A DNA stretch of 64,000 bases from NCBI GenBank assembly GCA_040218535.1, contig JAVJRG010000012.1:1364001-1428000 (forward strand). Direction: 5' to 3'. Shown here in pieces: positions 9,328 through 52,094 of this stretch; position 1 is the stretch's first letter; every line of letters starts with the position of its first letter. Made by a program: the position numbers and the translations under genes. The stretch is from Lacipirellulaceae bacterium. Lineage in GTDB: Bacteria > Planctomycetota > Planctomycetia > Pirellulales > Lacipirellulaceae. A model generated the notes under the pieces. The model saw only the letters and a program-made list of their open reading frames with translations. It was not told where the DNA came from and did no database searches.

Positions 9328-10020
9328 CCGCCTGCCGTGGTCCAAGCCGCTAGACGAACGCCTAGTGACAGACCCTTAGCGACAGAGGTCACCCGAGAGC
9401 TTCGTGGGGTTCGAAGCTGATGCCAAATTGCCGACCTTATTCTTCTGGCTAACTCGCGAACGTCACGAGAGACGAAGAATCAACGCAAGCCAATCAATCT
9501 GGCTGGCGGCGGTCGCAAGGGGCAAGAAAATCAGTCGCGGTCGAGAGTCAGAAAGCCTGCCTTCCTAATCCTAGCAGATTGGAGGCGGCGAACCGCTTGC
9601 TTCGAGCTTCGAATGAACACAACCGTTGTGCCAGTCAGATTGCCGCAGTAATTGTCAGAACTACGCTGCTTGGCCGGAAGGTCTCACACCTTTGTATGAC
9701 CTACAGGATAGCAGGCCAGACGTCGTGGGCAAGTCGAAATTGGACAAAGGCATGTGTTCCTAGCACCTCGAACTTCTTGTCATTCCGAAGGGAGGCTCGC
9801 CGACCGAGGAATCTGGGCTCAACTAGAGTGCGTTCCCGATTTCTCCGGTGCCGAGACACCTGTCGAAATGACACGAAGTGCGGAGTCGTGGTCAAGTCGT
9901 CCTAGGCTTTGATTTTATGGATAACTATTGATCCTAAACGCCTCGCCAGCTAGCTTGTCGAGCACCAACCTTATCTTTTCTAGCGATTTTGCAGCCAGTT
10001 CTGGGCGGAAACAGCATCGA
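9328..10020. other. Long divergent intergenic region
   Basis: Separates the helicase (minus) from the EIIA-SLC4 fusion gene (plus). The frames that run through it have no coding character. The main feature is the large palindrome at 9773-9878; otherwise I see no convincing RNA gene or promoter. Confidence 0.5.
9773..9878. repeat. Large imperfect palindrome (TTGTCATTCCG family)
   Basis: Arms 9773-9816 and 9835-9878 of about 44 bases each pair with roughly ten mismatches. The left arm begins CTTCTTGTCATTCCGAAGG; the right arm in reverse complement begins CTTCGTGTCATTTCGACAGG. The short loop favours a stable cruciform or RNA hairpin. It resembles dispersed bacterial palindromic elements and explains the spurious open frames on both strands here. 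Confidence 0.7.
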
Positions 10021-15689: not shown

Positions 15690-15710
15690 TGTGAAGACTT
15701 TCTAGCGCTA

Positions 15711-15873
15711 ATTTTGGCCACGGATCCACACGGATTTCACGGATGATTTTTCTAGACTTCTCATAGCCCGAAGTGTTAGTGAGGGAGAAAACTGATTAGT
15801 GGAATCCCTCGCTTGCGCTTCGTGCTGTGATTCTTAATCATCCGTGCAATCCGTGTTCATCCGTGGCAAAATT
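15711..15873. repeat. Nested palindrome inside the RND operon
   Basis: Outer arms (about 15711-15750 and 15836-15873) are of the CCACGGAT family: TTGGCCACGGATCCACAC against a right arm that reads TTGCCACGGATGAACAC in reverse complement. Inside lies a second palindrome, arms 15765-15786 (AGCCCGAAGTGTTAGTGAGGGA) and 15805-15826 (reverse complement AGCACGAAGCGCAAGCGAGGGA). Two different dispersed families are thus nested one within the other, between adaptor and pump genes. Confidence 0.75.
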
Positions 15874-15894
15874 CAGGCTTGCACTTTCTTGTGG

Positions 15895-17307
15895 CTACTT
15901 TGCATTGGAGGGAGAATCAGTTTCGGGTAATTTTACGAGAGAAGCCGGATCGACGACGACTCGCTGACCGACGACCACACGATGCGTTCCGCTTGTCACG
16001 ACTTGGTCGCCAGGGCGAAGTGTGCCGCGGACAAAACTGCGATCGTCGACGTTGTCGAGTAGTTCCACATCGCGGCGGGCGATTTTTCCTTGGCGGCTGC
16101 CGGCGGTCGACGTGCCCTCTTCGGCAGGTTCCACGACGAACACCGACCAAAGACCGCGAGTACTGCGTGAGAGGGCAGTCGTTGGAACCCAGTAGCCGTT
16201 CTTCTCGACGCGCTGCTCGGCCGCAAAGCGAAAGACCTGACCGGGCAAGGGTCCACTCTCGCCAGACCCGGCGTCTGCGACGAGATCGAGAATGACGTTC
16301 CGCGTTCGCGTGGTACGATCGACCTCAGGAGCCAAAGAACTGACTTCCGCTTGGACGGAATAACCGTCGACAAGCAGGGTATGCGTGCTGCCTTTCGAAA
16401 GTGTGGCGGCTGTGCTGGCTGGCAGTCCGACCCAGGCTTCGAGATGCGTGTCATCGACAATTTCTACGACAGGCGTGCCTGCTTGGATAACGATTCCCTC
16501 GTCAACCATCCGCGAAGCGATTCGGCCCGCATAGGGGGCACGAAGCAATGCATCTTCAGCATCGTGATCAAGGTCTTCGAGAAGCGCGTTGATCTGATCG
16601 AGCCGCGCTTGCTGTGCTGTTTTCTTTTCTTGACGCGTCCCGACGACAAGCTCTTCCAACTGCCGTTCGACCATGGTGACGCGTGCAGCGGCAGCCTCTG
16701 TTTCATGGAGGTACGTTTCGTACTCTTCCTGAGAAACGGAGGCCCCTTGAACAAGCTTCGCTCGCCGAGCTAGTTGCTTTTCCAAGACTTTCAATTGAGC
16801 CCGAAGTGTTTCAAGCTCGGCACGCTTAGCTGCGATCGTTTCTTTTCGCGGTCCGTTGACTAGTTCGAGCAGTATCGCTTCCGCCTCGAGACGCTGGGCT
16901 TTAAGATGTTCTCTGCGGGCTTCGATGTGCCGCGTGTCGAGTTTGCCAATGACTTGATCCGCTTCGACCCGATCCCCTTCGTCAACGGAAAGTTCAACGA
17001 CCTCACCGCCGCGTTGAAAACCTAGCTGGCTGCGGCGGGATTCACGGAGGATACCCGTGTAGTCGCGCTGGCGAACATAGCTGTTGATCTGCTCGACGGT
17101 GAAAGTGCTAACCGGAAGCGGTGTGTTCGTCTCAATTTCTTCCGATTCCGCTGAGGCTGCTGTACTTCCCGCTTTGGTTGCTGCGAAAGCTCCGCCAACA
17201 GTCAGAGCGACCAAAGTTAAGAGGATCAAGTTGCGTTTCGTCAAAAATTGACGTTGCGTCAAATTCTTGGCAAAAAAAGAGTGTTCGGTGGCGGTGCTAG
17301 AACTCAT
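15895..17307 (-). CDS. RND/HlyD-type periplasmic adaptor (membrane fusion protein)
   Basis: 470 residues from ATG 17307. An N-terminal anchor (RNLILLTLVALTVGGAFAA) is followed by the barrel/lipoyl half-motif ESRRSQLGFQRGGEVVELSVDEGDRV, a long alpha-hairpin of heptad-rich Glu/Arg/Leu sequence (~residues 125-235), the second lipoyl half APYAGRIASRMVDEGIVIQAG and C-terminal beta-barrel domains ending in VVTSGTHRVVVGQRV. This order is standard for AcrA/MacA-like adaptors, which bridge the inner-membrane pump to an outer-membrane channel. The start overlaps the stop of the TetR gene by 11 bases, so the two are translationally linked, and the pump gene follows. The assignment is secure; the substrate is unknown. 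Confidence 0.93.
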   Translation of the reverse strand: MSSSTATEHSFFAKNLTQRQFLTKRNLILLTLVALTVGGAFAATKAGSTAASAESEEIETNTPLPVSTFTVEQINSYVRQRDYTGILRESRRSQLGFQRGGEVVELSVDEGDRVEADQVIGKLDTRHIEARREHLKAQRLEAEAILLELVNGPRKETIAAKRAELETLRAQLKVLEKQLARRAKLVQGASVSQEEYETYLHETEAAAARVTMVERQLEELVVGTRQEKKTAQQARLDQINALLEDLDHDAEDALLRAPYAGRIASRMVDEGIVIQAGTPVVEIVDDTHLEAWVGLPASTAATLSKGSTHTLLVDGYSVQAEVSSLAPEVDRTTRTRNVILDLVADAGSGESGPLPGQVFRFAAEQRVEKNGYWVPTTALSRSTRGLWSVFVVEPAEEGTSTAGSRQGKIARRDVELLDNVDDRSFVRGTLRPGDQVVTSGTHRVVVGQRVVVDPASLVKLPETDSPSNAK

Positions 17308-18013
17308 CGGAAAATGCCTCTTCTCGGACCCGGTCCATCAAAGCTTGGTAGTCAACTTCATGCGAAAACGGACGCCAGCCATAGCCATCCAACATGAAGC
17401 TCTGATTATCTCTTAATGCCGCCACTGGTTCAGCGATGCCGTTGTCGCCCAGTGAATCGCTGGTTGCCATGATCGTGTACGCCCCGAAATTCAACGACCA
17501 GAGACCGAACACTAGGTCTTCAGGTGTCCGTCCTTCGGGCATTGTTAGGTCTCCATGAGCGAGTCCATCGCGAACAATGCCACTAATGATCTGCATGCAG
17601 CGAGATTCGCAGGACTGCATCATTTGTTGGCGTTCTTCGCTGGTTTTCTCCCAAATTGAGGCGGAACGAACGATCTGCTCCACGGCGAAATGAAGCGGAA
17701 ACCGGTCTACAAACTCTTCAGCCGCCGCACCTACAGCAGCCATTCGCTCACGCGAATTACCGTTCCAAGTGGCTGCGACTTCAAACATCCGTAGGCGGGT
17801 TTCCAGCGCATCATTCGCCAAGGCGAGAATGATTTCTTCCTTGTTGCGGAAGTGCTGGTAGATCGTACCTTTGGAGTATTCCATTTCCGCGGCAATCCGG
17901 TCCATACTCAGACCGAGATAGCCCGACTCGCGCAACATTACGCGGGCAAGTTCGAGGATGCGAACTTCCCGCTCTTGTTTCTCGCGTTCTTTTCTTGTGA
18001 GGGTTGCGACCAT
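17297..18013 (-). CDS. TetR/AcrR-family transcriptional regulator
   Basis: 238 residues from ATG 18013. The N-terminal TetR helix-turn-helix is clear at residues ~18-65: ILELARVMLRESGYLGLSMD, RIAAEMEYSKGTIYQHF and RNKEEIILAL, where SKGTIYQHF is the recognition-helix signature. The rest is a helical ligand-binding domain, with cysteines in QSCESRCMQ. It is the first gene of an operon with a periplasmic adaptor and an RND pump, so it most likely represses the efflux operon and itself. A perfect 7-bp inverted repeat sits over the -35 element just upstream. The -10 element lies so close to the ATG that the message may be leaderless. The inducer cannot be inferred. Confidence 0.93.
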   Translation of the reverse strand: MVATLTRKEREKQEREVRILELARVMLRESGYLGLSMDRIAAEMEYSKGTIYQHFRNKEEIILALANDALETRLRMFEVAATWNGNSRERMAAVGAAAEEFVDRFPLHFAVEQIVRSASIWEKTSEERQQMMQSCESRCMQIISGIVRDGLAHGDLTMPEGRTPEDLVFGLWSLNFGAYTIMATSDSLGDNGIAEPVAALRDNQSFMLDGYGWRPFSHEVDYQALMDRVREEAFSDEF

Positions 18014-20690: not shown

Positions 20691-22295
20691 ATGGTTCGTT
20701 GTACTGCTTTTCTCTGCCTGCTTTTCTCAGCCGGCATCGTGCATGCCCAGGCGCAAAACCCGACGCCTGGCGTGACCTTGCTGCAATTCTCTTCACCAAG
20801 TTGCGGACCTTGTCGCTCGATGCGTCCCAAAGTGCGTCGCCTTCATCAGGCCGGTTACGCCGTGCGAGAAATCGACGTTACTCGTGAACCGCAACTTGCT
20901 GAGCGGTACCGCGTTCGAAGCCTGCCGACCTTTGTCACGGTTGTTGGCAATCGCGAAGAGGGTCGTCTCGTTGGAGCAACTTCGCAAGCGCAACTCCAGG
21001 AGATGATGCACAAGTCGTTGCGGATCGCTCAAGCAAGAACTGGAAACGCTCTGAGTGAGCGGTCGAGTAACCCAGAATTTGAATTGGTAGGCTCCCCACA
21101 ACCATCGCGAACGGTGCCGCAGAATCGGATTGTCGACGTGAGTTCTCGGCAAGGGGATGCCGCCAACCAGGGGGCTACGGTTCAGCAACCGGCACAGACA
21201 AGGGAGAACTTAGGGGCGGCTAAGCCGCGAGCGGCTTGGCCACCTACTGCGTCGTCGCAGAATGCCAACGCCACGAGGATCAGTCCCGATCAACTGATCG
21301 CTGCCAGTGTTCGATTGACCGTTGAAGATCGCGATGGCCAGTCAACGGGAACCGGCACCGTTGTTGATTCGCGTGAGGGAGCCTCGCTAGTGCTGACTTG
21401 CGGACACATTTTTCGTAGCTCGGGTGGCAAGGGGCCGATCTCGGTGACCTTCTTTCAGTCCGGCCCGAACGGTGCCGTTGTGAAAGAAACATTGCCAGGT
21501 GAGCTGGTCGATTTCGATTTGGAACGCGACTTGGCATTAGTCAGCGTTTGGACGAAGAACCAAGTAACCGTTGCACCAATCGCCCCTCCAGCTGTACAAG
21601 TGACACGCGCCGATGCCGTGACCACCGTGGGTTGCAACGAAGGGGCCAACCCCACGGCAATCAACACCCAAGTGACCGCGATCAATCGCTACCAGGGAGC
21701 CCCCAACGTCGAGGCAGCAGGTGCGCCGATTGAAGGACGCTCCGGCGGGGGCATGTTCAACAGTGCTGGACAACTCGTGGGCGTTTGCTTTGCAGCAGAT
21801 CATGAAGGGAATGAAGGGCTCTACGCGGCATTGGGTTCGATCTATGCGAAACTCGACGAGTTGAAACTCTCCAACGTTTATCGCAATCCCCGAGTTGGAA
21901 ACATGGCTCAATTGAGCCAAGAGGAATCGACGCCGGTCGTACCGCCGACTCAAAACCAAGTTGCTGTTGCCGCGGCTCCAACGCCCCCGCTGACCATTCG
22001 CGGGCAGCAGCCGACGTCGACTTCAAGCTCTACGTCTCCAAACTCGATGACTCCCGATTGGCCGCCAAGGGAAGCGCCCGTTACGCCTGAGGTTGTCCAA
22101 GGCCCGGCTGCCAGCGCGACGCCTCTGTCGCAAGAAGAGCAGGCCGCTTTCGAGGAGATCCAGCGGCTTGGCGCCGATTCGGAAGTCGTCTGCATCATTC
22201 GGCCGAAGACGCCCGATGGGAAAAGCCAAGTGATCCGCTTGGAGAACGCTTCGCCGAGCTTCGTGTCGAAGCTTCGGGAACAGGCACCGCGGTAG
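20691..22295 (+). CDS. Secreted thioredoxin-fold / trypsin-like serine protease fusion
   Basis: 534 residues from ATG 20691, with GGAGGG five bases upstream. A signal peptide (CTAFLCLLFSAGIVHA) leads into a thioredoxin domain with CGPC at residues 38-41 and the cis-proline region RSLPTFVTV. After a Gln/Pro-rich linker comes a trypsin-like domain. The catalytic triad is readable as His239 in TCGHIF, Asp280 in LERDLALV and Ser351 in GRSGGGMFN, spaced as in HtrA-type proteases. The C-terminal ~140 residues are low-complexity Pro/Thr/Ser with a short conserved-looking end. The protein probably acts in the periplasm or outside the cell, joining redox and proteolytic functions, perhaps in protein quality control; that role is inferred. 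No PDZ domain is seen. It appears to be transcribed alone. Confidence 0.88.
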   Translation: MVRCTAFLCLLFSAGIVHAQAQNPTPGVTLLQFSSPSCGPCRSMRPKVRRLHQAGYAVREIDVTREPQLAERYRVRSLPTFVTVVGNREEGRLVGATSQAQLQEMMHKSLRIAQARTGNALSERSSNPEFELVGSPQPSRTVPQNRIVDVSSRQGDAANQGATVQQPAQTRENLGAAKPRAAWPPTASSQNANATRISPDQLIAASVRLTVEDRDGQSTGTGTVVDSREGASLVLTCGHIFRSSGGKGPISVTFFQSGPNGAVVKETLPGELVDFDLERDLALVSVWTKNQVTVAPIAPPAVQVTRADAVTTVGCNEGANPTAINTQVTAINRYQGAPNVEAAGAPIEGRSGGGMFNSAGQLVGVCFAADHEGNEGLYAALGSIYAKLDELKLSNVYRNPRVGNMAQLSQEESTPVVPPTQNQVAVAAAPTPPLTIRGQQPTSTSSSTSPNSMTPDWPPREAPVTPEVVQGPAASATPLSQEEQAAFEEIQRLGADSEVVCIIRPKTPDGKSQVIRLENASPSFVSKLREQAPR

Positions 22296-26461: not shown

Positions 26462-29400
26462 TCATGGCGACGCGGGCTGGTGGGCGGTGCTTTCCATCGC
26501 ATGTTGTTGCCTCTGACGACTGCGTTTAAGTAGGGCGACCGAATTTCGGAGCAGTGTCGCTGCCGCTAGGCAAGCCATGAGAGCTCCGACAAAGTGGGGC
26601 TCGAGAAAATACCACCAGCAGAGCCCCAGCAGCAAAACGATTATCTGCGAACCGCGTTGCCACTTCTGGGGCTCGACCGACTGGATGCTGAACCAAAGCT
26701 GGTCAACGTGTTTCCTGCCGTAGTAAAAGACGACCAGAAGGAAGCCCAAGGCGATCCAACGAGGAGTGCCTGGCCAGTCGCTCCGTTGAATCAGTAGAAG
26801 TCCGCTTGCGCCTTCGGAAACCAAGTGAACTGATCTGGTCGCGGACGCTTTAGAAACGAGGCCAGTCGTTGGCGATTCGGTTTCTACAACACCACTTGCC
26901 GTGACATTCCGCTCGACGTCATCCTCTGCGCTGAAGAGCGTTTGCAACTCTTCCCAAGTCTTGAGTCGTTCGACGGTATCTCTGACGCTCTCCGAATTCG
27001 TCCAGTTCTGAACGTTTTCGGAGGTCTCCTCACGAAGGCCCAAGACAGAATCTTCTAGCAGCTTCGAGATGCTTTCTTTCCAAGGCCTTAACCAATTGCG
27101 ACTCTCCCAGGGATGAAGCTGTAAGGCGAGAGGAGTCGCTTGAGAGACAGCCGCGATGCGGGCGGCAATTCTTTGCTCGTGGAATTCCGTTGACTTAAGC
27201 TGCTGGGCGTTTGGGGCAATCTCATAGGTTCGCCCGGCCTGTCGAATTTGCCAGTGCATTTTTCTAAGCGGCAAATTGCGATTGGCCATTGTGATTTGAG
27301 GTGGCTGCAGACGAGGTGCTGGAGCATCGAGCACAACCATTTGGCGATAGGTGACGACAATCTCAACGGGCAAGTACGGCGGGCCAAATGTTACGAACTT
27401 GGATTCGACAGAGGTATTTGGCATCGCAAGAGATTGCCCGGCAACTTGAATACTGATGAGTTCCGCGTCCCGTGGAGCTTTCACCATGCAATTAGTAGCA
27501 CGCCCAGGTTGCAGGAGAAAACGTGTCGTGCCGATCCAATCCCCGGTGGCATCTAAGACTCCATCGGTTTCGGCATAACGGATACGAGCTCGACGAAGTT
27601 CATTTGGGAAGATACGCTGCTCAGCAAGATAGTTCTCGTTCGTGACGATGAAGGATTGCCAATCAGTCAATCCCTTTGTGGCCTCACTCAATCGTGGACC
27701 TAACGGTTTTCGCCGCAAACCACTTAATTGCCAGGAGATCGATTTCTCGTTGACAATTGTCGGAATCACTAGAAATCGTTGCTCGATTTGTGCCTCAGCG
27801 AGGTCGATCTTAGGGGCCCGAATGCGATAGGCATTGGCATTAGCCAGGTCTCCGCGGACGATGAGCATTTGGTGATCGCCAGCTTTGAGGACGTCATTCA
27901 AAAGTATTTCGAATTGACGTAAGCCTTGAGCGTTCTGGCCGATCGGAACGACCTCAAAGAAGCCTCCCTCTTCACTGCGCGGAGTCCAATGTTGATCAGC
28001 TAGGATCGTGAGCCGATCTACCCTGCCCGAGATCACTCGTAGATCAACAGCGTATTCAGCCAACGATTCATCTCGCGAGACTGTAGCTGTCCGGGCGACA
28101 AACTGAGAATCGTTGGTAGAAATCCGCAACTTTGCCTCTGCGAGTTCAGCTGGGTTTAGTGAGTACTCGCCCAGATTCACCCTTGAGTTTGAGGTCATTC
28201 GGCGTTTTGAAACCGTGGTCGATTGAATCACTTCGCCACCGGAATCGAGAAGCTCAGCATGGATCTCCGAGCCTCGCGAAAGTTTGACAATGGGAGCGGG
28301 TTGCTCGGCATCGCGAATCTCGATCTTAGGGCAACTGAATTCACGCGACTTGGGATAGGTCAGAGTGCCCAATAAGCGGATCGTGCAAGGTTCTGAAAGC
28401 GGTTGTTTGAGGAAAAGATCGAGACGATTGGCCGAAGGGCGTGTCCAACGGAGAGGAATGTTGTTGTTCTCGTCGATGGAGATCTCAACGAGATCAACGA
28501 CGAGTTCACTAGGTACGTTGAGTACGTGATGAAGTGATTGCAGGGAATCGATAAAGGTGGAGCGATATTCCAGGTCAGCGTGCCCGGCAGCGCAGTGGAG
28601 AGCCATCCTGGCGTCCAACATCACAAGTTGGCCACTGGGTCGTACCGAGACGGACCAATCTGGGTACTTGCTTTGCATTGCGTAGGCTAAATCGGGCTTC
28701 GGTGCGTTTTCGCTCCACAATGCACTGAATTCTTCCGGTGAAATCGGTCTCAACTTTTGGCGCCGACCCTCTCTGAAGCTTAGCTGTTCCGCTACCGATA
28801 CCGCGAACAGTCTCCGAATGCGTTGGAGCCCTTTGATGTGAAGATACGGAAATGAGATCCGTCCAAGTGCAGGGCGGTCCAATTCAAACGAGATCTTAAG
28901 ATCGAGTGGTAACGTGGAGCCTGCAGGTAACTGTAGTAGCGACTCCTCTCCACTTGCTTTCGGTAGAACTTCCAGGCTAGCTCCCTGTTGGTCCCAGACG
29001 GAATCGATTTGCATAATAGGGGAGTGGACCAGAGTCACCGTCTCAGGAAGATCCTCTCCGATGAGTCGCAGCTTCGCCTCGCCTGTGACTCGTTCAGGGG
29101 CAATGTCTAACCATTCGAATTGCTCGACACGCAACTTGGCAGAATCCGGCATTGCTTGGGAACTCCAAGCGAGGGCGAGCTGATCGCTTGCCCCCAATGT
29201 CGCTCTTATAAACTGGCCCTCACGGCGAGAATCGAGCCTCGTGGCACCTGGCAACGACAAATTCTTAAGTGCCTCTGGTTTAATGACTTCAAGTTGAGCT
29301 CCAGGAAATCTGGGGACGGATAAAGTGACTTCTGCCAGTTCATTGTGAAGCTCGACTTCGGGCGTCATCACCAGTCTTAGCTCATGGATGCCAGCCTCTT

Positions 29401-32400
29401 GTACTTGGAGTTGTAGGTTCTCTTGGTCCTTCGTCCAAACGGCCCGCAATGCTCCGCCGTTGAAGGAACTGTTCACGAGGTTCCAGTTTGCATCCTGCTT
29501 CTTCAGCGGCAATTTGACTGTAGTGCTTGTAAGATGTGTTCGGATGCGAAACGCCAGTACCGACTCGCCCGCAGAGATGCGTCCGTCCGCTTCACTGCGG
29601 TCAAGAACAATCGAGTATCTAGCGCCGAGCAACGCCCAGTCCGTGCCATTGTGCTCGCTTAGTTGGGCAGCACGTTGAAGACGCTGCAGTAGCGACTGGG
29701 GGACGTAGACCTCTCCTTCAGGCTCAAGTTCTCGCACTTCATAGGGGATGAGCACCGCCGGAGGCACTTCCGTTGCGCTGACCTTTCTTCCTTGATTAGC
29801 GAGGCTAGCAAATGTTGCAATAAAGATCACCGCGACTCGCAGGGCTTTCTTTTGGATTTCTGGGGGAGAGTCGTGGCGAAATAGTGTTCCTTGAAAAGCT
29901 GCTTGAACAATGACTCCTGAGAGGCAGCCGAGAAAAAGTGCCTGCAGCACGCTGATCGACATCGGAGGCAGAAGCAGACAGGCAGCACCCAGCCCGACGG
30001 CAATCATAAGCAAGAGTCGTGGCCTGTTGACGAGCAACCAGCAAGAAAAAAGTGCGGAGGCAAACCACGCAGCGCCCCAAAAGCTACTTCTCTGCTCTGG
30101 GAGCTGGACGGTTACAGGTGCTGGACGGGTCCCGAATTCGACAGTTGTCACTTGCGAAGTATGGAAGACTCCAGACACTTCGTTGGATTTGCTTGTCTTG
30201 GTTGTTTCCGGTTCTAAGAGCAATGGACCAAGGAGCCGCTGGAAAACATCTGGGCGAGATTCGTCGAGCCCGAGGCCCCCCGATCGATGAGATTCAACAA
30301 CTTCGTAGCCAGGAGGTGTTCGCATGGTCCACCAGCCGTGGAGGGTCGGAAATGAAACACGCGGAAGACACGCTTCGAGTTGTTCGTCGTGCGATAGCGG
30401 TTTCGACTCGGCTTCGTACCGCAACTCGACCATGAAGTTCTGTTTCGGAGGTGTGGCAAAATGAAAGGCTCGGCCGGATGCTTGCTGAAAACGATCGCTC
30501 TCGAGGCTGATCACCTTTCCGTCAACTTCTGCTGAGAGCAACTGAGCCTCTTCAGGGAAGGTGAAGGCCACCTCGCCGACCGGATCCTTGCCAAGACGTT
30601 GCTCTAGCCGATAACTAACCGTACCCCGCAAGGCACCTGACGGCGCGTGTTCTGTGACCACGTTGACCTCAGAACAAACAATACTACGGTTCGGAGATCG
30701 CTTGCTCGACCCTACCACTCCCTCATTGCTCGCCGCTTGGTAGATAACTGGCAGCTTTCTCACGAGCAACGGACTCTCCTGGGGAAGGCGGTAGCAACCG
30801 AGCAGGGTGGCGTCTGTCGAATCCAATGACGGAGGGGTGACCGGTACGCTGCCGCTGGGATCGACTTGGTAATTCCCACCATTTCGGCTGCTGTTGGGAG
30901 ACGCATCGAGGATGAGTGCCCAAGATTGCCACTGATTGGCAGAAGGTGAGTGGAAGCTATCGATCACCTGCCGCTCATCGACGATTTCGCGATGGTAATC
31001 CAGGCTGAGCGTGAACTCGCTTTCCATTGGATTTGCAAATTGAATTCGACAAGCCACGGGACGCGAGCGACGCCCTCTTCCTTCTGGAAGCGGTGATTCT
31101 GTTCCCGCTAACAGTTCTTCGACAACTAGATTCGCACTCTCGGATCCTAAAATCCATGAGGCTCGCCTGGGAAGTTCCTGAGAACTAACAACAATCAATT
31201 CGTTTAAAGGTCTTTCCTGCGGAGTCACCCGAAAATCGACCCGATAGTTGACCTTATTATTACTTATCGTTCCCTTGATCATTGCGTTTGATTCGTACGA
31301 GGGAGCCGACTGGCGAAGCTCGATGAAACGCTCGCCCTCCAGTGCTAGTAGATCGGTGATCAGGCGATTCGGATTGGGCTCTGCCCAAGTGAAGTCAGCG
31401 TCTAAATCCGCTGGTCCACTCGTAGGAGATGGGGAGCGCTTAAACTGAAGAGTCGTGCCAGAGAACCTGCCCGATTGAATTGCTAAAATATTCTCTGTAA
31501 GCCGATGATCGGGAAAGGAGAGCCAATTCAGTCTCTCCAAAGGCAGAGGAAGTGCCGAGGACTTCACTGTCCCACGTCCAAGAATCTTAAGAAGCACGGG
31601 TTCCTCGTTGCTTGGAGCGCGATGCAGCTGTATGCGTAGCTTGGGCGAACCGGTCGACTTATCGACATGCCAATGAGCTAGGTCCCCTGCCACCTCAGTC
31701 TGGACAGATTCGATGTCCCAACTTGGAAGTAGCTCCGCGTTAAGCCGAAAAGCGTTGGCTTGTGACGCTGATAGAGCGACTCGTACTTCTGAGTTCGAAC
31801 GATTCTCGTCTATTTCGACAAGACTGACTTGTTCGATGAGAAACTGGCGACTGCGAGGAGCAACGCTTACCTCAAGAGAGGCTTGTTCGCTAAAGTATTG
31901 GAACTCGTACGCTTCAACGCGAGCATCCCGACTGTTCGAATTACCTGATTCAACCACATCGAATGTTTCAACGCTTATCAGACGAGCGTCCTCTGGCGAG
32001 AGAGATTGAAGTTCGAATCTGCGATCGAGCCGGACTACACAGCTCCCTTTTGTCCAACTCTCAAAGGGAACGATCAGCTTCGGTAACCGCCAAGCACGCC
32101 CATTGACTAGTTGGCTAGACGCTTTGACCACGATTTCATGGGTGGTCGAGTTATTCGGTAGCTCAATCATTAGTCGCTGCTTTATCTTTGCATCCCGACG
32201 CCAGGAAGCCGGCTGGCCATCGACTTGAATCTCGAGATGCCTGAATGAATCGGTGCTCAGCAAAGAAAGCGTACTGGCTTCGTCGACGCGCGCTATCTGG
32301 AAGGTTGCTTGGTAATCCAAGCCAATTGGACTCAAATGATAATCGTCGTGCTGGGAGACACGCAGGTTCCCTTGATCCAAACCTAGTTGTTCCTTTTCAT

Positions 32401-33199
32401 CCGTAGCCCGAAAGAGATGTGTTGTGCTGGGGCGCAGATTGCAATACCAGACGCTCTCATCAACGGTCTTCTTCTCCAACTTGATCTTGGAGAGCGATTG
32501 AGAGGAGAGTTGGTAACCGGTAGGCAAGGCTAAGAAAAGCTCCTGGACAGCTGCATCGGAGAGACGAAATTTCCATGACGAACTCCCATCCTCGGTTGGG
32601 TCAGCAGCCAATCTCCACTTCAAGAGCAAGGTTCCACTGCGAGGAACCAGCAAGCCAAGTTGAGGCTGCCCGTCCGCTCGGGTCTTGCTCGGGATATGCC
32701 AACTGGCGACGATGGCCCGGCGTTCGGAATCTCCTTCCCACTGCGCATCGAGGATCGCGATGGCAGAGCAGGGAAGCAAGAGAAGTTGAGGTTGCTTCCC
32801 GTGGAGCCGGATTCTTAGCTCGGAAGTGCCCTCTAATTCGCCAAGCTCAGTTTGTTTGTCGACATTGACTCCTCCTCTTGCCCGATGGCTCGCGCTGACA
32901 ACTTCAACGCGTTGTTTTCCACTAGTTGCACGCTGTGCGTCTTGAACAAGGTGATCGAAAGTTTCTCGGTCAATCGGCAAATACTTCTTTCCACCCGTCG
33001 GCCAAGATTCGGGGCGATTCTCGGGGACGTAGATGGTCCGAAACTCAACGCCCTGCCCTTTACCTTCAGTGGCCACTTGGGCGATCGCAGGGGCAATCCA
33101 AGAGCAGGAGAGCAGTGTCACGAAACCTAGAACTCGTGGCACCCCAAGTCGCTCTTTCGTGATAGGGTGCCGATTCTTGCCGAAGGTTAACGACATCAT
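26462..33199 (-). CDS. Giant two-module envelope protein (2245 residues), function unknown
   Basis: 2245 residues from ATG 33199. The N-terminus has a signal-type segment (LGFVTLLSCSWIAPAIAQ). Residues ~45-1040 are a beta-rich ectodomain with no family I recognise. A cluster of membrane helices lies at ~1043-1140 (WFASALFSCWLLV, LLLMIAVGLGAACLLL, VLQALFLGCLSGVIVQA and VAVIFIATFASLANQG). A second ectodomain of ~1000 residues follows, and the C-terminus has further helices (~2146-2225: WIALGFLLVVFYYG, IIVLLLGLCWWYF, FVGALMACLAAAT) and a short basic tail. The two halves open alike (KKYLPIDRETFDHLVQDAQR and GEVYVPQSLLQRLQRAAQ), as does the upstream gene product, so this looks like a fused duplicate. 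Its start overlaps the upstream stop by ATGA, giving coupled translation. Coding is certain; function is not. Confidence 0.88.
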   Translation of the reverse strand: MMSLTFGKNRHPITKERLGVPRVLGFVTLLSCSWIAPAIAQVATEGKGQGVEFRTIYVPENRPESWPTGGKKYLPIDRETFDHLVQDAQRATSGKQRVEVVSASHRARGGVNVDKQTELGELEGTSELRIRLHGKQPQLLLLPCSAIAILDAQWEGDSERRAIVASWHIPSKTRADGQPQLGLLVPRSGTLLLKWRLAADPTEDGSSSWKFRLSDAAVQELFLALPTGYQLSSQSLSKIKLEKKTVDESVWYCNLRPSTTHLFRATDEKEQLGLDQGNLRVSQHDDYHLSPIGLDYQATFQIARVDEASTLSLLSTDSFRHLEIQVDGQPASWRRDAKIKQRLMIELPNNSTTHEIVVKASSQLVNGRAWRLPKLIVPFESWTKGSCVVRLDRRFELQSLSPEDARLISVETFDVVESGNSNSRDARVEAYEFQYFSEQASLEVSVAPRSRQFLIEQVSLVEIDENRSNSEVRVALSASQANAFRLNAELLPSWDIESVQTEVAGDLAHWHVDKSTGSPKLRIQLHRAPSNEEPVLLKILGRGTVKSSALPLPLERLNWLSFPDHRLTENILAIQSGRFSGTTLQFKRSPSPTSGPADLDADFTWAEPNPNRLITDLLALEGERFIELRQSAPSYESNAMIKGTISNNKVNYRVDFRVTPQERPLNELIVVSSQELPRRASWILGSESANLVVEELLAGTESPLPEGRGRRSRPVACRIQFANPMESEFTLSLDYHREIVDERQVIDSFHSPSANQWQSWALILDASPNSSRNGGNYQVDPSGSVPVTPPSLDSTDATLLGCYRLPQESPLLVRKLPVIYQAASNEGVVGSSKRSPNRSIVCSEVNVVTEHAPSGALRGTVSYRLEQRLGKDPVGEVAFTFPEEAQLLSAEVDGKVISLESDRFQQASGRAFHFATPPKQNFMVELRYEAESKPLSHDEQLEACLPRVSFPTLHGWWTMRTPPGYEVVESHRSGGLGLDESRPDVFQRLLGPLLLEPETTKTSKSNEVSGVFHTSQVTTVEFGTRPAPVTVQLPEQRSSFWGAAWFASALFSCWLLVNRPRLLLMIAVGLGAACLLLPPMSISVLQALFLGCLSGVIVQAAFQGTLFRHDSPPEIQKKALRVAVIFIATFASLANQGRKVSATEVPPAVLIPYEVRELEPEGEVYVPQSLLQRLQRAAQLSEHNGTDWALLGARYSIVLDRSEADGRISAGESVLAFRIRTHLTSTTVKLPLKKQDANWNLVNSSFNGGALRAVWTKDQENLQLQVQEAGIHELRLVMTPEVELHNELAEVTLSVPRFPGAQLEVIKPEALKNLSLPGATRLDSRREGQFIRATLGASDQLALAWSSQAMPDSAKLRVEQFEWLDIAPERVTGEAKLRLIGEDLPETVTLVHSPIMQIDSVWDQQGASLEVLPKASGEESLLQLPAGSTLPLDLKISFELDRPALGRISFPYLHIKGLQRIRRLFAVSVAEQLSFREGRRQKLRPISPEEFSALWSENAPKPDLAYAMQSKYPDWSVSVRPSGQLVMLDARMALHCAAGHADLEYRSTFIDSLQSLHHVLNVPSELVVDLVEISIDENNNIPLRWTRPSANRLDLFLKQPLSEPCTIRLLGTLTYPKSREFSCPKIEIRDAEQPAPIVKLSRGSEIHAELLDSGGEVIQSTTVSKRRMTSNSRVNLGEYSLNPAELAEAKLRISTNDSQFVARTATVSRDESLAEYAVDLRVISGRVDRLTILADQHWTPRSEEGGFFEVVPIGQNAQGLRQFEILLNDVLKAGDHQMLIVRGDLANANAYRIRAPKIDLAEAQIEQRFLVIPTIVNEKSISWQLSGLRRKPLGPRLSEATKGLTDWQSFIVTNENYLAEQRIFPNELRRARIRYAETDGVLDATGDWIGTTRFLLQPGRATNCMVKAPRDAELISIQVAGQSLAMPNTSVESKFVTFGPPYLPVEIVVTYRQMVVLDAPAPRLQPPQITMANRNLPLRKMHWQIRQAGRTYEIAPNAQQLKSTEFHEQRIAARIAAVSQATPLALQLHPWESRNWLRPWKESISKLLEDSVLGLREETSENVQNWTNSESVRDTVERLKTWEELQTLFSAEDDVERNVTASGVVETESPTTGLVSKASATRSVHLVSEGASGLLLIQRSDWPGTPRWIALGFLLVVFYYGRKHVDQLWFSIQSVEPQKWQRGSQIIVLLLGLCWWYFLEPHFVGALMACLAAATLLRNSVALLKRSRQRQQHAMESTAHQPASP

Positions 33200-36100
33200 G
33201 ACCCACCGCCGATGTTCGAAACGCCCGAAGCTGGAACTTCCGGCGTTAGTTTCTGGGCAATCGTCGCCGCGGGATCCAGGTTCTCAGGCTCGTTCCAGAT
33301 TCCTGTAGATACGGTTTGGATATCGATCGATCCGTCGTTGTAAGCAGAACTCTGCAGGGCTGGCTCAACGGTTAGCCAACGTCGGAGCAAAGCTGTTGCG
33401 GCAACAAGTCCAGCGGCGACGATCACGAGCTGCGATGCTGCGAATGCCAAGTCGGGTTGGGTGAGGACAACAAGAATTAGAAGGCTACTCAAAACCAACC
33501 AGAACAGAGCACGCCGCCAGAGGGCGGTGTAGATCGAGAGAACCCCGAGAGCGAAGATGACAGCGACAGTCAGGCACTGAGGTATCAGTGCGGAGATAAA
33601 GTATCCCTCCACGAAAGAGGGTGCGGCTAGTGAACTGAATACATACTGGCTCGTTCCCACACCGGGCTCAATTGGTGCACGCAACGCGCCAGCCCACTGT
33701 TCGAGGTCGCTTTGGCTCTGCAAAGGTTGCCTCCCCCATCGCAAATTCCTCCAACCAAGTTGATATTCCCCGCTTATGTTTTTCGAACTCCCTGAGAGAA
33801 CCAATGAACCAGGAGCGACGATGTGCCAATAAAAAGGAGCATTTGCGGACGTGTTGAGAATCTTCGGAATCCTTAGTTCCAAGCTTCGCCATCCGCTAGA
33901 AGCAGCCTGACGCATGATTCGCAATTCAATCGTATGCGGCAAAGCCTGGTCGGACTCAGGCAGATCGACGACCAAATTAGATCCGTCCAACTCAATCGAA
34001 TCCTGCACTTGGCCATCAAGAGCAACTTCGAGTTGTTGATTGATCCAGGTTTCAGGTAGCGACAGAGTGACCTTTTGTCGGTTGGTCGTGATTCGATAAG
34101 CGAGACGATCTTGCTTCGTTCTGCCTGCAAGCCAAGTCTGCGCCCAAACCCGATCTAGTCGAAGTTTGCCCTTATCCCGGAAGAGTTTCTTGCCGATTTC
34201 GATCGGCAATGAGCTCGGCACTCCTGCGTACTCTACTTTGAGGGGATCCAGGCTTGCGGCTTTCGCTTCCACGGACGTCCATGCCGATCCATTGTTTCCA
34301 GTATCGATGGCGACGTACAAATCACCTACGTTGGAAATTCGAGCAATAGTGCTTTCTAAGGGTGCGAGAGGCTCAATGAGAGGTAGGTCGATCGAAGCAC
34401 TAGAATTCGTAGGTCGAACGTCGCGCGGAATCGAGTACTGAATCTCGAGCAATCCTTCTCCCTTGAGCAGCCTTGGTAGTGCGATCTCTAACTTAATCTT
34501 CCTGGCATCGGTAAGCGGTGAATCTATCTCGGAAGAAGGGGCAGCGACGAATTCCTTAACCGCATCGGTTGCTAGTTCTTGACCATCCCAACGGAACCCA
34601 AGGGCTCCATTCTCCCACAGAGCTCTTGGAGCAATAACCCCAACCTGTTGTAGTGACTTGAAGCGAGCGAGATAGCCGAGGGATTGCTTCACGAGCACTT
34701 CCTCACTTCGAACACTCACGTCCAACTCTGAGGACACTTGGACTTCACCAGGACGATCCGTGACGCTGATTGCCAGCTCAGCTTGCGGTGAAAAGACAGC
34801 AAACTGCATCGCTGTCTCGGAAGAATCCTCAATGCCGTTTCGTCGGGTGGCCGTATTGCTGTCCAAAGCTTCGCTCTTGTTGGCGATGGCAATTCCCTTC
34901 GTCTCATCAAGCTGCGGTGTTACTTTCAGTGCACTTGCAGCTGTCATGGAAAGCTTGCCTGGGAGCGCAAAGGTTCCCAGGGGTTGGGGGAGCGAGAACC
35001 GATTCAGCCCGCGGGAAACTGGTCGACGCAAGGTGAAGCGAACCCTGGCTGTTTCTTCAGCCGGGCTTGCAAACGGAAGAATCAGTATTCCGTCGTTGTT
35101 AACATGCAGCCGACTACTTTCGACAAGTCCCCCTGACTCCACAGGTTCTTCGGTAAGTTCCCAATCCTTCAGGTCGATGCGAAGCGAAAAGAGCCTTGCT
35201 GCGGAGATCTCATATCCCAAATCGACAGCCAAAGTTGCGTCCTCATTCTCAATCGAAAGCTTGTATTGAGGACGGACTCTTATCCGCTCGATCCGCGGCT
35301 GAGTATGGGCCACAACTTCCCCTGAAGTCCCAGCGTACCGAAACGCCGCTGCGACTTCTGCCACGGAGAGTTCTTCGGGCAATTGGCTAGCGGCGATCTG
35401 TTCAACGGAGCCTGCGAGGTCATAGTAGCTTTGCAATCGATCACTGGTGGCAACACTAAGGAAGCCAGATTGTCGATGGATTCCTAAGATCCGAGGTACA
35501 GCCAACACCATCCTGTGAGAAGATCGATCTGATCGGACTGCTTTTATTGCGCTAAAGACGACGAGTGGAGGCTCAGACACCGGTGCTGGAAAGCGAATCT
35601 CGACGAGCGTTTCGCCTTGCTTCGGATTCTCCCGGCTAGGTTCCGTTTTCGCGGCACTCACTTTGCGGACACGATAAGATTCGTCGGAAACCTCCTCTGC
35701 AAGCTCAAAGCCAACTGGCAGTTCAATGCGGTAGCTTTCAATGGGTCGGCTATTCGTTGTCGCACTTATGAGGCAGTAGTAGCTAATCTCTTCAGGCGTC
35801 AGTTTGGCTCGGATGTTGAGTTCCGCTTCGATCTGACTTGGTTTGTTGCCTCCAGCAGAGACCGGCAGCCAGCTAATGTCTATGACTCCCGCGACGCCTG
35901 AAACCTCAAGGCGAGACCCGTTCTCGCGTCGTCGCTTCTTCGTAACCATTCGGACACTAGGAGCCATAATATCCAAGTCGGTCCCCGGAACCTCGATTTC
36001 GAGTTCGGACTTCGCCGCTTGTGGCAGATTGAGAGCGAACCTGCGAAGGTTCGCTAGATTTTCGACCGGCGTTGTGAATTTTATCTCAACGTTGAAGCGT

Positions 36101-36744
36101 CCATGCAATTGCTTGCTCAGCCAAAGTTCGTAGGCGTTTCGCTCCGCATTGAAGGTAACGGAGCTTTCGTTCGCTTCATTAGGAAAACGAACCTCCTCCA
36201 GCACCGCACCTCCTAGGTCAATCGGTACGCCAGTTCGTGATCGGCTCGACTTCACAATCGTCAGCTTCGCCAAGAGTTCGGCATGGTCGCCAACGACCTT
36301 GCCGCTGACCCTCAGCGATTCAATGATCGCTCCAGCGCTTTCTTCTGAATGCTGCAGGCCTTGATCTTTCAGAAAATCCTCATATCGATAGCCGATCACT
36401 CTTCGCAAGTTGCCGTCGGAATCGGGCAGATAAAAGACTGCCGGTTCGTCGGCGGGGGACATGAGAATTTGCCTGGGAAGACCCCTGTCCCTCGGCGACT
36501 TCGTAGGAGCAGATTCTCGCGTGTCGGATTTCTCAGGGGTACTGTTCACAGGAGGCGCTTCTGGCTCCTCCGAGCCAGAGTCGGCACGAGACCGGGAAGA
36601 CTTCTCTTGGCCGTCGGCTTCTTGTGATACGGCCAGTGATCCCGTCGTCACCCATCCAATCAGCCAGCAGTAGACAAGGGCTAAGAACCCTTGAGCAGCG
36701 ACCTTAGTAAAGGCTTTCGGTTTATGGCTTAGAAAGCGCAACAC
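33196..36744 (-). CDS. Large envelope protein, one-module paralogue (1182 residues)
   Basis: 1182 residues from GTG 36744. A signal or anchor segment (AAQGFLALVYCWLIGWVTT) is followed by a Ser/Glu/Arg-rich linker, then ~950 residues of beta-rich ectodomain starting PAVFYLPDSDGNLRRVIGYR. Near the C-terminus lie four membrane helices (~1065-1150: FISALIPQCLTVAVIFALGV, YTALWRRALFWLVLS, LLILVVLTQPDLAF, LVIVAAGLVAATALL) and a ~50-residue tail. The layout equals each half of the 2245-residue product encoded next, and the order of short motifs after the opening (a G-x-V strand, a L-x-x-L-x-I strand, then a long L-W-L-x-K strand) recurs there. The genes form a two-gene operon with a 4-base overlap. 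A surface or cell-envelope complex is plausible; no catalytic motif is seen. Confidence 0.87.
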   Translation of the reverse strand: MLRFLSHKPKAFTKVAAQGFLALVYCWLIGWVTTGSLAVSQEADGQEKSSRSRADSGSEEPEAPPVNSTPEKSDTRESAPTKSPRDRGLPRQILMSPADEPAVFYLPDSDGNLRRVIGYRYEDFLKDQGLQHSEESAGAIIESLRVSGKVVGDHAELLAKLTIVKSSRSRTGVPIDLGGAVLEEVRFPNEANESSVTFNAERNAYELWLSKQLHGRFNVEIKFTTPVENLANLRRFALNLPQAAKSELEIEVPGTDLDIMAPSVRMVTKKRRRENGSRLEVSGVAGVIDISWLPVSAGGNKPSQIEAELNIRAKLTPEEISYYCLISATTNSRPIESYRIELPVGFELAEEVSDESYRVRKVSAAKTEPSRENPKQGETLVEIRFPAPVSEPPLVVFSAIKAVRSDRSSHRMVLAVPRILGIHRQSGFLSVATSDRLQSYYDLAGSVEQIAASQLPEELSVAEVAAAFRYAGTSGEVVAHTQPRIERIRVRPQYKLSIENEDATLAVDLGYEISAARLFSLRIDLKDWELTEEPVESGGLVESSRLHVNNDGILILPFASPAEETARVRFTLRRPVSRGLNRFSLPQPLGTFALPGKLSMTAASALKVTPQLDETKGIAIANKSEALDSNTATRRNGIEDSSETAMQFAVFSPQAELAISVTDRPGEVQVSSELDVSVRSEEVLVKQSLGYLARFKSLQQVGVIAPRALWENGALGFRWDGQELATDAVKEFVAAPSSEIDSPLTDARKIKLEIALPRLLKGEGLLEIQYSIPRDVRPTNSSASIDLPLIEPLAPLESTIARISNVGDLYVAIDTGNNGSAWTSVEAKAASLDPLKVEYAGVPSSLPIEIGKKLFRDKGKLRLDRVWAQTWLAGRTKQDRLAYRITTNRQKVTLSLPETWINQQLEVALDGQVQDSIELDGSNLVVDLPESDQALPHTIELRIMRQAASSGWRSLELRIPKILNTSANAPFYWHIVAPGSLVLSGSSKNISGEYQLGWRNLRWGRQPLQSQSDLEQWAGALRAPIEPGVGTSQYVFSSLAAPSFVEGYFISALIPQCLTVAVIFALGVLSIYTALWRRALFWLVLSSLLILVVLTQPDLAFAASQLVIVAAGLVAATALLRRWLTVEPALQSSAYNDGSIDIQTVSTGIWNEPENLDPAATIAQKLTPEVPASGVSNIGGGS

Positions 36745-37019: not shown

Positions 37020-37820
37020 CTAATATCCACTCGTAGTCAGACTTAGGAGCGAGCGATGAAGTTCGCTAGTCGCGGCTGTGAAATAGCTGGCCTCAGCCAG
37101 GTCGAATTCTCCCCCCCGACTAGCTGTGACCGTGCCGCCAGCCTCCTTAACAAGCAGAGCTCCCGCAGCCGCGTCCCAAGGATGGATCTGGTGTGCCCAG
37201 TGAGCGTCTAACCTTCCACAAGCCACGTAAGATAGATTGAGCGCTGCCGAGCCAGTTCGTCGGACGGCTCGGCATCGTGTTGCGACATCGAGAAAAGACT
37301 TGAGATCAGGCGAATCGCGCGATAATTGTGGCGGAAAGCTAACCGCCACGAGCGATTTCTCAACGTTCTTCGCCTCACTTACCCGAATCGGCTCGCCATT
37401 GAGGGTGGCTCCTTCTCCTCGGCTGGCGGCGAACTTTTCGTTGAGTAGAGGATCAATGATCACGCCTGCCTGTAGCTCTCCGTCAGCGACCAGGCCAACC
37501 GATACCGCGAACAAAGGGAATTGATGCAGGTAATTGGTTGTGCCATCAAGAGGATCAATAACCCAGCAGAATGGTTCCGCCAGCAACTCGGCAGCCGGGG
37601 CCGACTTGGCGGCCGACTCTTCGCCCAGGATCGCGTGATCAGAGTAGTGGTGAGAAATAACCTGGCGAATAGCCTTCTCCGAGGCTAGATCAGCGTCGGT
37701 CACGAAGTCGCGACTCGCTTTTTCGCGAGCCCGGAAACGATTCCTCCATGCAAGTAGCTGCTCGGCCCCAGCTTGAGCCGCCAGATCGCAGATCGCTAAT
37801 AATTCAGCCGGAGTTGGCAT
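37020..37820 (-). CDS. Inositol monophosphatase family protein
   Basis: About 266 residues from ATG 37820; a TTG at 37871 would add 17 residues. It belongs to the lithium-sensitive magnesium-dependent phosphatases (IMPase/SuhB/CysQ group). Metal and catalytic residues are readable: DFVTDADLASE near 38, Glu67 in LGEES, Asp89 and Asp92 in WVIDPLDGTTNY, and a C-terminal WDAAAGALLVKEAGG with the third metal aspartate. It removes phosphate from inositol phosphate or a related small substrate; SuhB-like or histidinol-phosphatase roles cannot be told apart here. It lies upstream of the giant envelope operon on the same strand, but 275 bases apart, so probably independent. Confidence 0.94.
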   Translation of the reverse strand: MPTPAELLAICDLAAQAGAEQLLAWRNRFRAREKASRDFVTDADLASEKAIRQVISHHYSDHAILGEESAAKSAPAAELLAEPFCWVIDPLDGTTNYLHQFPLFAVSVGLVADGELQAGVIIDPLLNEKFAASRGEGATLNGEPIRVSEAKNVEKSLVAVSFPPQLSRDSPDLKSFLDVATRCRAVRRTGSAALNLSYVACGRLDAHWAHQIHPWDAAAGALLVKEAGGTVTASRGGEFDLAEASYFTAATSELHRSLLSLTTSGY

Positions 37821-37967
37821 ATTGCGAGAAATGGGGTGTTTGAGCCATCGGCAGCATACAGAAAGCCGCAATGACGTAAAACATTATGGGTTAGGTAATA
37901 ACGACGAATGCTGCCAGAATTGTAGAGGAAATCTCGAAAAGTTTCTTGCTATGGCCGCTGAAAAAGC

Positions 37968-38220: not shown

Positions 38221-38991
38221 ATGGAAGAATCAATTTGGAAAATTGACGGAAATCAAACCACACTTCGGTTGCAAGGGTTTGCCGCAGGTCTTGATCTGAG
38301 CCGTTTTGATCTGGGTTTCACGAACTTAGAGATTGATGGTAGTAGTGCATCCGGCAAGATCCTTGGCGTCACAGTCGATAGCGGTGTTCCAGGTAGAACG
38401 GTGGACGATAGACGTAATGATGCACCGATGGAAGCCTATGTACGAGGTAGCCAGCTCGTAGCTACCTACGCGGCAACAGTCGATCGCCCCGTTGGCTTTC
38501 AGATTGAGTGGGAAGCTCAGTCTAGTGAGAGTGGCTTGGTGATACTCGACGTGATGATCTCGGTGCAAACTCCTCTGTTAGAAACTTATCCGGAAGTGAC
38601 CGTCACCTCGGATTTGCGATGTCGAGAATTATCTTTCAACGCGAATGGCTCAACGACTGACGGCCTTGCTTTGCAAGATAAGGAGCTTCAATCCGAAGAC
38701 TCAGGAATCTCTCTTGCGAGTTTATCTGAAGACGATTCGGAGGGTGGTCTCTTCTATTCAGAAATGGTTCACCCGACAGACTTTCTTTCGTGGCAAGGTC
38801 TCCCACAGGCAGACGGCGTCACTACCACCTGGAAACTCTGCGACCACTTCATGGAAAAGGGCGTCATTCGCCGATTACGAGCTCGTGGAATCTTGGTCCT
38901 TGATCGGACATGCTCTCGTGAATTCGCCTTGGAGCTTGCGCGAAAGGAATTCCGAAGACTTGAAGCAGAGCAGCCGCCGCTTACAGCTTAG
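38221..38991 (+). CDS. Conserved-looking protein of unknown function
   Basis: 256 residues from ATG 38221, with AAGGA five bases upstream. There is no signal peptide or membrane helix, so it is probably cytoplasmic. The first ~140 residues alternate in a beta-strand pattern (WKIDGNQTTLRLQGF, GKILGVTVDSGVPGR, VGFQIEWEAQ, LVILDVMISVQTP). A short Ser/Asp/Glu-rich linker comes next, then FSWQGLPQ-like and VTTTWKLCDHFMEKGVIRR segments and a helical end. I recognise no family. The strand pattern resembles a carbohydrate-binding or galactose-mutarotase-like sandwich, but that is a guess. It follows a terminator-bearing leader and converges with the ClpP-like gene, with 12 bases between stops. Confidence 0.75.
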   Translation: MEESIWKIDGNQTTLRLQGFAAGLDLSRFDLGFTNLEIDGSSASGKILGVTVDSGVPGRTVDDRRNDAPMEAYVRGSQLVATYAATVDRPVGFQIEWEAQSSESGLVILDVMISVQTPLLETYPEVTVTSDLRCRELSFNANGSTTDGLALQDKELQSEDSGISLASLSEDDSEGGLFYSEMVHPTDFLSWQGLPQADGVTTTWKLCDHFMEKGVIRRLRARGILVLDRTCSREFALELARKEFRRLEAEQPPLTA

Positions 38992-50068: not shown

Positions 50069-50200
50069 GATTCGAGCCGCAACTTAGCCAGCTTCGCCAT
50101 TCCCCCAAGTCTCCGGTGAACTTCGAGGATAAATTCTCGATTCACCACGGACCGCGACTTTGCATTCCGATGTATTGAATAACCATTGGTTTGTCTTGTC

Positions 50201-50221
50201 GCACTCTCAGGCGGGGAGTGC
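50201..50221 (+). promoter_or_regulatory. Hairpin upstream of the TolC-like gene
   Basis: GCACTC-n9-GAGTGC, a 6-bp perfect stem, lies about 18 bases before the GTG start, in a 170-base gap that follows the HlyD gene. It could adjust translation or mRNA stability. Confidence 0.35.
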
Positions 50222-50239
50222 TAGCAGTGGAAGCTTTTC

Positions 50240-52090: not shown

Positions 52091-52094
52091 ATTC

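Follow-up and report, generated by a model that had tools for sequence, protein, structure and literature searches.

The N-domain of the M1 aminopeptidases (PF17900 Peptidase_M1_N; PepN, ERAP1, LTA4H) is the closest described counterpart of the proteins reported here. These are the products of two adjacent genes, here called A and B, on the minus strand of a 64,000-nucleotide stretch from a Lacipirellulaceae bacterium (GenBank assembly GCA_040218535.1, contig JAVJRG010000012.1, positions 1,364,001 to 1,428,000), which we refer to as the window; its source genome is 5.36 Mb. In structural models, domains of A and B resemble the M1 N-domains, with a best Z-score per domain of 11.9-13.6 and a root mean square deviation (rmsd) of 3.0-4.1 over 147-164 residues. 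They differ from the aminopeptidases in that they occur as five tandem copies, are attached to a membrane anchor and have no Pfam match, and neither of the M1 catalytic motifs, HExxH and GxMEN, is found in A or B.

Three other described systems bear a likeness to this gene pair. For A, the first Foldseek match was a chain of the oligosaccharyltransferase (OST) complex, with an E-value of 4.4e-9. The tools name only the complex; we take the chain to be Ost1/ribophorin I (PF04597), which has a pair of such domains in tandem and then a transmembrane (TM) helix. Residues 577-984 of the A model, covering the last two domains and the first TM helix, align with residues 29-463 of 7oci_A (Z 12.7). The modules of A and B differ in having five domains and three helices, and the orientation of the domains is not the same. 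Because the two-domain rmsd is ~14-16 and the Z-score is no better than for single domains, the OST chain is not a closer match than the aminopeptidases. PF04597 was detected above its cut-off in none of 29 genomes, and not even at E up to 10 in the genome of the window. The models point to a fold shared with the lumenal arms of the presumed Ost1, which does not imply common ancestry. For the second module of B, integrin alpha chains came first (E down to 1.9e-11). Integrin alpha legs, complement and alpha-2-macroglobulin chains are likewise strings of beta sandwiches, but the template-modelling scores (TM-scores) of 0.06-0.17 and the rmsd of ~20 or more correspond to a generic likeness with no sign of kinship. 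Regarding the fusion in B, the cytochrome b/c1 protein FbcH of Bradyrhizobium is a bacterial fusion cut by signal peptidase, in which one open reading frame (ORF) yields two membrane proteins by cleavage at an internal signal sequence. Its products are unrelated electron-transfer proteins, whereas the halves considered here are paralogues and their cleavage is a prediction.

The abstract of PMC11958385 describes planctomycetes with an enlarged periplasmic space. The A/B pair occurs in a third or more of the genomes that were sampled from this phylum and has no family in the libraries searched; with ~3,400 residues together, A and B form a very large membrane-anchored protein set. To our knowledge, few proteins that shape the planctomycete periplasmic space are known. 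Our preferred reading, which we hold tentatively and with somewhat less than even confidence, is that A and the two halves of B (B1 and B2) are equimolar inner-membrane rods of one non-enzymatic scaffold, B being a polyprotein cut by signal peptidase.

Domain architecture of A and B

Gene A (33196..36744, minus strand) starts with GTG and encodes 1182 residues, comprising a signal peptide, five beta domains similar to the M1 N-domain (M1N-like), three TM helices and a putative cytoplasmic tail. Gene B (26462..33199, minus strand) starts with ATG and encodes 2245 residues in two fused modules. Both ORFs are where the initial annotation had placed them, and they share the sequence ATGA, formed by the stop codon of A and the start codon of B (33196..33199, minus strand). 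This spacing, in which B starts exactly 4 bases before A's stop codon ends, recurs in 28 of 41 Pirellulales neighbourhoods, i.e. the window and 40 loci chosen because they matched.

Orthologue profiles of the three modules, with A taken as residues 90-1140, B1 as B residues 40-1145 and B2 as B residues 1146-2245, were compared with hhalign. The three align end to end, far beyond chance: A with B1 at E 1.2e-43 over 947 columns, A with B2 at E 3e-36 over 952 columns, and B1 with B2 at E 6.5e-35 over 930 columns, which confirms the three-module layout previously read from the sequence. The short opening motif noted at that time is also real, since relatives have, by eye, V-(F/Y)-x-(L/I/V)-P, followed at a short distance by another (F/Y)LP or a similar stretch. 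Comparison of each profile with itself showed internal repeats in every module at offsets of ~165-185 residues and multiples thereof. Each ectodomain is made of five repeats of ~180 residues, a point absent from the initial annotation. When the five domains of A were cut at the borders seen in the model, their best matches in B1 and B2 were colinear, with the exception of D4, whose best matches in both fall at the places of other domains. In a matrix of all 15 domains, those at the same position matched with probabilities of 94-98% (D1 96-98, D2 96-97, D3 96-98, D4 94-97, D5 97-98), and many matches across positions were seen, chiefly among D2, D3 and D4. The simplest history would be that one domain gave five and that the five-domain module then gave three.

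A tree of 108 modules from 36 loci (16 of the 41 Pirellulales neighbourhoods and 20 of 40 loci from wider lineages) was built with FastTree only, leaving out one locus that could not be split (L140). The modules cluster by position, with 6 label changes compared with a mean of 51.1 after shuffling and a least possible number of 2. The tree has long branches and does not resolve into three clean clades (2 changes for A, 5 for B1 and 4 for B2), and in locus L138 the two B modules pair with each other. As the modules group by position, the triplication probably predates the spread of the lineages sampled, with the deep order being unsure. The profile alignments, the domain matrix and the tree all support the earlier proposal of duplicated and fused modules, and on this sequence evidence the triplication is well supported.

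The fold of the domains was examined in AlphaFold models made with nine sequences per run. The model of A residues 90-1182 has a mean predicted local distance difference test (pLDDT) value of 70.6 and a predicted TM-score (pTM) of 0.33, and that of B residues 1050-2245 has values of 70.3 and 0.36. Many domain stretches reach a pLDDT of 80-90, while the mutual arrangement of the domains is without confident prediction. Five of the ten modelled domains (A D1, D4 and D5; B2 D1 and D3) match the fold of the M1 aminopeptidase N-domain. In A, with all coordinates on the minus strand, D1 (residues 124-294; 35863..36375) matches these N-domains through model residues 35-205, with a best Z of 11.9 and an rmsd of 3.7 over 164 residues. 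D4 (residues 651-855; 34180..34794) matches the N-domain of LTA4 hydrolase through model residues 577-764, with a best Z of 11.9 and an rmsd of 4.1 over 160 residues, and D5 (residues 856-1052; 33589..34179) that of E. coli aminopeptidase N through model residues 769-961, with a Z of 12.1 and an rmsd of 3.8 over 153 residues. The borders of D2 (residues 295-466; 35347..35862) and D3 (residues 467-650; 34795..35346) were taken from the model; both are related to the other domains by profile and have no solved-fold match of their own among the matches listed. The ectodomain of B1 (residues ~75-1040; 30080..32977, minus strand), for which there is no model, has five domains colinear with those of A by profile. 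That of B2 (residues ~1165-2005; 27185..29707, minus strand) was matched by model at D1, to the N-domains of PepN and LTA4H (Z 12.1-12.3, rmsd 2.9-3.2), and at D3, to that of ERAP1 (Z 13.6, rmsd 3.5). The remaining domains were placed in the M1N-like fold by their sequence kinship to the matched ones. According to the models, then, an M1-N-domain-like fold is well supported; the ectodomains are not of unrelated folds, A and B2 sharing one and B1 being homologous to both by profile.

Three membrane helices per module are seen in the models, and not four at the C-terminus of A as first annotated. Those of A (residues ~1053-1124; 33373..33588, minus strand) correspond to model helices 964-983, 990-1006 and 1008-1035. 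In B, both of the helix clusters previously noted are present. The first (residues 1041-1102; 29894..30079, minus strand) is read from the sequence and, from residue 1050 on, also seen in the model of B, and its supposed fourth helix (residues ~1122-1134) is instead the signal-sequence-like opening of the second module; the second (residues ~2145-2236; 26492..26767, minus strand) corresponds to model helices 1096-1125, 1128-1149 and 1154-1187. With the signal peptide inside, the ectodomain outside and three helices, the chain should be back in the cytoplasm after each module, which would make the tail of A cytoplasmic. In the sequence of A, the basic residues that link helices 1 and 2 and those that follow helix 3 agree with a cytoplasmic side. 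The putative cytoplasmic tail of A (33196-33372, minus strand) contains a T-x-x-W motif (residues 1147 and 1150) that is invariant in the nine aligned sequences and may be a docking site.

Sequence families

At the sequence level, the absence of a known family that had been put forward for A and B holds. Neither protein matches a Pfam or NCBIfam family above the curated cut-off, and among 28 A orthologues no Pfam family is common to more than 5, the best E-value being 4.7e-5 in one member. This one hit, to TgpA_N, and those to DUF5693 in five members (best 0.014) were taken as membrane-helix noise, without further test. A profile of the 28 orthologues has no sequence match in the PDB even at E 10, the PADLOC anti-phage defence profiles contain no family for the pair at E up to 1, and A has no match in 72,556 plasmid records, the only search made beyond Planctomycetota. 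No description of the gene pair was found in the literature, judged largely from titles and abstract openings, with most subscription papers outside the search; passages of PMC4973528 deal with N-glycosylation in eukaryotes and do not mention it. The same claim does not hold for the fold, which is that of the M1 aminopeptidase N-domain. The domain fold is known, but neither the libraries nor the literature searched yielded a bacterial family whose five-domain rods come as a triplicated and partly fused set.

The kinship to M1 N-domains was also assessed by sequence, with a profile of 15 planctomycete M1 domains. B1 D3 gave a probability of 84%, B1 D2 44%, B2 D3 33% and B2 D4 27%, with the other 11 domains below 6%; in 45 control comparisons with three unrelated profiles the highest value was 20%. 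Homology to the M1 N-domains is no more than suggestive, and the claim rests on the fold. Across the 28 A sequences 12 columns are invariant; their residues (G, P, W, Q, R and Y) form no catalytic set and suggest a role in structure rather than catalysis.

The segment joining the two modules of B

Between B1 and B2 lies a segment resembling a signal peptide (residues 1117-1142; 29774..29851, minus strand), with candidate cleavage after VSA (1142) or SLA (1134). By eye, the B1 helices are followed by a basic stretch, a short hydrophobic stretch, an AxA-like site in many orthologues and then polar or Pro/Ala-rich residues. We scored cleavage sites with a matrix trained on the N-terminal signal peptides of A, the A N-termini themselves being scored with a matrix from B. 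After exclusion beforehand of 4 of the 41 B ORFs, shorter than 1800 aa, 37 junctions were scored; too-short segments were dropped, which left 39 of 41 A N-termini, 36 B2 TM1 segments and 35 each of B2 TM2 and TM3.

The junctions have a median score of 3.0 compared with 3.8 at the N-termini of B in 37 orthologues (one-sided p 0.56 for junction greater). The medians of nine control TM helices range from 2.0 down to -3.5, all below the junction, and the junction exceeds them with a one-sided p of 0.046 against A TM2 and of 3.4e-6 or lower against the other 8. Individual junctions score above zero in 30 of 37 cases and at 3.0 or more in 19. In wider lineages, 9 of 17 junctions show, by eye, xAQ at the end of the hydrophobic stretch. 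Moreover, in two distant loci (L130 and L132) A, B1 and B2, as assigned by order and tree, stand as three genes of their own, all of which by eye have a signal at the N-terminus. Two further loci (L160 and L146) were considered as longer fusions or a single three-module ORF and rejected, their N-terminal stretches looking like a spurious open frame in G+C-rich DNA.

Given the site scores of the orthologues and the separate signal-bearing genes, the preferred reading of the internal segment is a signal peptide from a gene that formerly stood alone. Cleavage of B by signal peptidase is a likely prediction from these sequence features, supported across the orthologues but weak at the junction of the window itself. 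The initial annotation had attributed the stoichiometry to translational coupling. This is plausible for A and B given their 4-base overlap, but the ratio of B1 to B2 is set more directly by the fusion of the two modules in one ORF, which are probably separated again by signal peptidase.

Proposed assembly and alternatives

In the scheme that we propose, A and B would supply the three subunits of a non-enzymatic scaffold in the inner membrane and periplasm. Every subunit would be a rod of five tandem M1N-like beta-sandwich domains on a three-helix anchor. A would be made first and B, by coupled translation, as a polyprotein. Once the three helices of B1 are inserted the chain would be cytoplasmic, Sec would engage the second signal sequence, and signal peptidase would free B1 and B2 as separate subunits at 1:1. 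The three paralogous rods would then pack alongside one another, held by contacts between helices and between domains; both this joint assembly into one complex and its role as a periplasmic scaffold are what we infer. An envelope complex of three paralogous rods, supplied equally by a polyprotein cut at a hidden internal signal and, for the third rod, by coupled translation, is an arrangement that we would put slightly below an even chance. If cleavage occurs, B would add a case of a bacterial polyprotein processed by the ordinary signal peptidase into paralogous products at a fixed ratio, and the pair offers concrete targets, namely one locus and one candidate cleavage site.

Several observations weigh against this scheme. 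The junction of the window itself scores -2.3, with RK before VSA, and that of Adhaeretor mobilis -0.3. The junction median of 3.0 is lower than that of the A N-termini, 5.0 when scored with the B matrix (p 0.96 for junction greater). Part of the junction signal is composition, since junctions with shuffled residues still give 1.56, and A TM2 is nearly as site-like, at 2.03. Nor is the junction set apart by the length of its hydrophobic stretch from three of the nine controls, B1 TM1, B1 TM3 and B2 TM2 (p 0.91, 0.24 and 0.33). A plain AxA regular expression does not discriminate either, matching 37 of 37 junctions against a shuffled expectation of 32.4; it fails to separate the junction from other helices because the proteins are alanine-rich, and in several orthologues the best-scoring site is not AxA. 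With a pTM of 0.33-0.36 for both models, the rod shape is tentative. Two loci (L158 and L159) show two modules only and B2 of L130 ends in one helix by eye, hence neither three modules nor three helices are universal. Finally, the pair is absent, even by profile, from 14 of 59 relatives and is therefore not universally essential.

The same scaffold could be built with the B1-B2 segment as an uncleaved TM anchor, in which case B would remain one chain and the fusion itself would fix the ratio. We regard this as possible, though on the unlikely side. It would account for the weak site of the window and for the two modules remaining fused in most sampled loci, and the segment is hydrophobic enough for a helix (mean of 2.68 over the best 10 residues) and similar in length to several true TM helices. 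However, the orthologue sites score like the true signal peptide of B and unlike other helices, and the residues that follow are, by eye, polar or rich in Pro and Ala, as downstream of cleaved signals.

A sensor or signalling assembly, in which the rods would bind something in the periplasm and report to an extracytoplasmic function (ECF) sigma factor through an anti-sigma protein bearing a VWA domain, is improbable. In 6 of the 40 wider loci a gene for a VWA-cluster protein, on the strand of the pair, takes the upstream place of the phosphatase gene described below, and 3 of these loci have an ECF sigma gene as well. Two of the six VWA proteins were scanned with Pfam; both have vWF_A, VWA and YfbK_C, and one (L135) has the anti-sigma-type zf-HC2. 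Against this, the YfbK_C family is unlinked in the genome of the window, where it lies on another contig, and in Pirellulales it does not track the pair, being present in 27 of 45 genomes with the pair and in 8 of 14 without it.

It is more doubtful still that the rods are a multiplied offshoot of the aminopeptidase N-domain serving as substrate-binding or chaperone arms for secreted proteins. Such arms would fit the likeness in fold to M1 N-domains and to the OST chain regarded as Ost1, which sits at the secretory translocon, but the sequence kinship with planctomycete M1 N-domains described above is weak (one domain at 84%, 11 of 15 below 6%). The least probable reading is a machine for export or for bridging the envelope that would work with a TolC-like outer-membrane channel. 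It draws on an OEP gene beside the pair in L132, L142 and L143; in A. mobilis (L071) such a gene lies ~1.5 kb from A, on the far side of the phosphatase gene. Against it, the count is 4 of 81 neighbourhoods, a lower bound because three of these four supplied the profile; L142 and L143 belong to one genus, the proximity may be due to chance, and the window has no OEP at the matching place, where a 523-aa gene without family lies.

Occurrence and gene neighbourhood

With single sequences as queries, A was detected in 43 of 59 genomes and B in 40, that of the window included, and a profile recovered 2 of the 16 genomes in which A had been missed. Lacipirellula limnantheis and A. mobilis are among the carriers of the pair. 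All 14 genomes without the pair belong to the family of the window; four are single-contig assemblies and three are less than 75% complete. The search of the gene pair across Planctomycetota that the initial annotation had called for gave matches of the A profile in at least 64 of 196 genomes drawn across the phylum, a lower bound obtained with at most three candidates scored per genome. B follows A on the same strand in all 41 Pirellulales neighbourhoods; in six of the loci, A or B was first assigned by size and then confirmed by similarity clusters. Eight genomes of one family (f21) have a second, diverged A-B locus with a B of ~2,660-2,720 aa. In three genomes of one genus (L141, L142, L143) a second A-B locus lies beside genes with an HTTM domain and a metallo-beta-lactamase fold, and beside a TolC-like OEP gene in two of the three, Pfam having been run on the L142 copies only.

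Upstream of A on the same strand, the window has a gene of the inositol monophosphatase family (37020..37871, minus strand; PF00459, 6.6e-67). In 28 of the 41 Pirellulales neighbourhoods and 8 of the 40 wider loci, a gene of this family lies on the strand of A no more than three genes upstream of it. Further upstream, on the opposite strand, a 256-aa gene (38221-38991, plus strand) belongs to a similarity cluster present in 22 of 41 neighbourhoods and has no Pfam or NCBIfam match.

Elsewhere in the window, a 717-aa protein (9928-12081, plus strand) combines a phosphotransferase system EIIA-type domain, overlapping Band_3_cyto, with a bicarbonate-transporter domain (PF00955, E 1.8e-165), in a layout like that of SLC4/band 3. 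The TetR, HlyD-type and AcrB-type genes at 12480-18013 (minus strand) form a resistance-nodulation-division (RND) efflux operon, and at 20691-22295 (plus strand) a thioredoxin-like domain is fused to a trypsin-like protease domain. At 46509-53339, genes for an ATP-binding cassette (ABC) transporter, an HlyD-type adaptor and an OEP channel lie in a row, with an HlyD gene on the opposite strand, as a type-I-secretion-like cluster. In one of the other loci (L136:15129-16298, minus strand), a transaldolase-type protein carries C-terminal EF-hand motifs.

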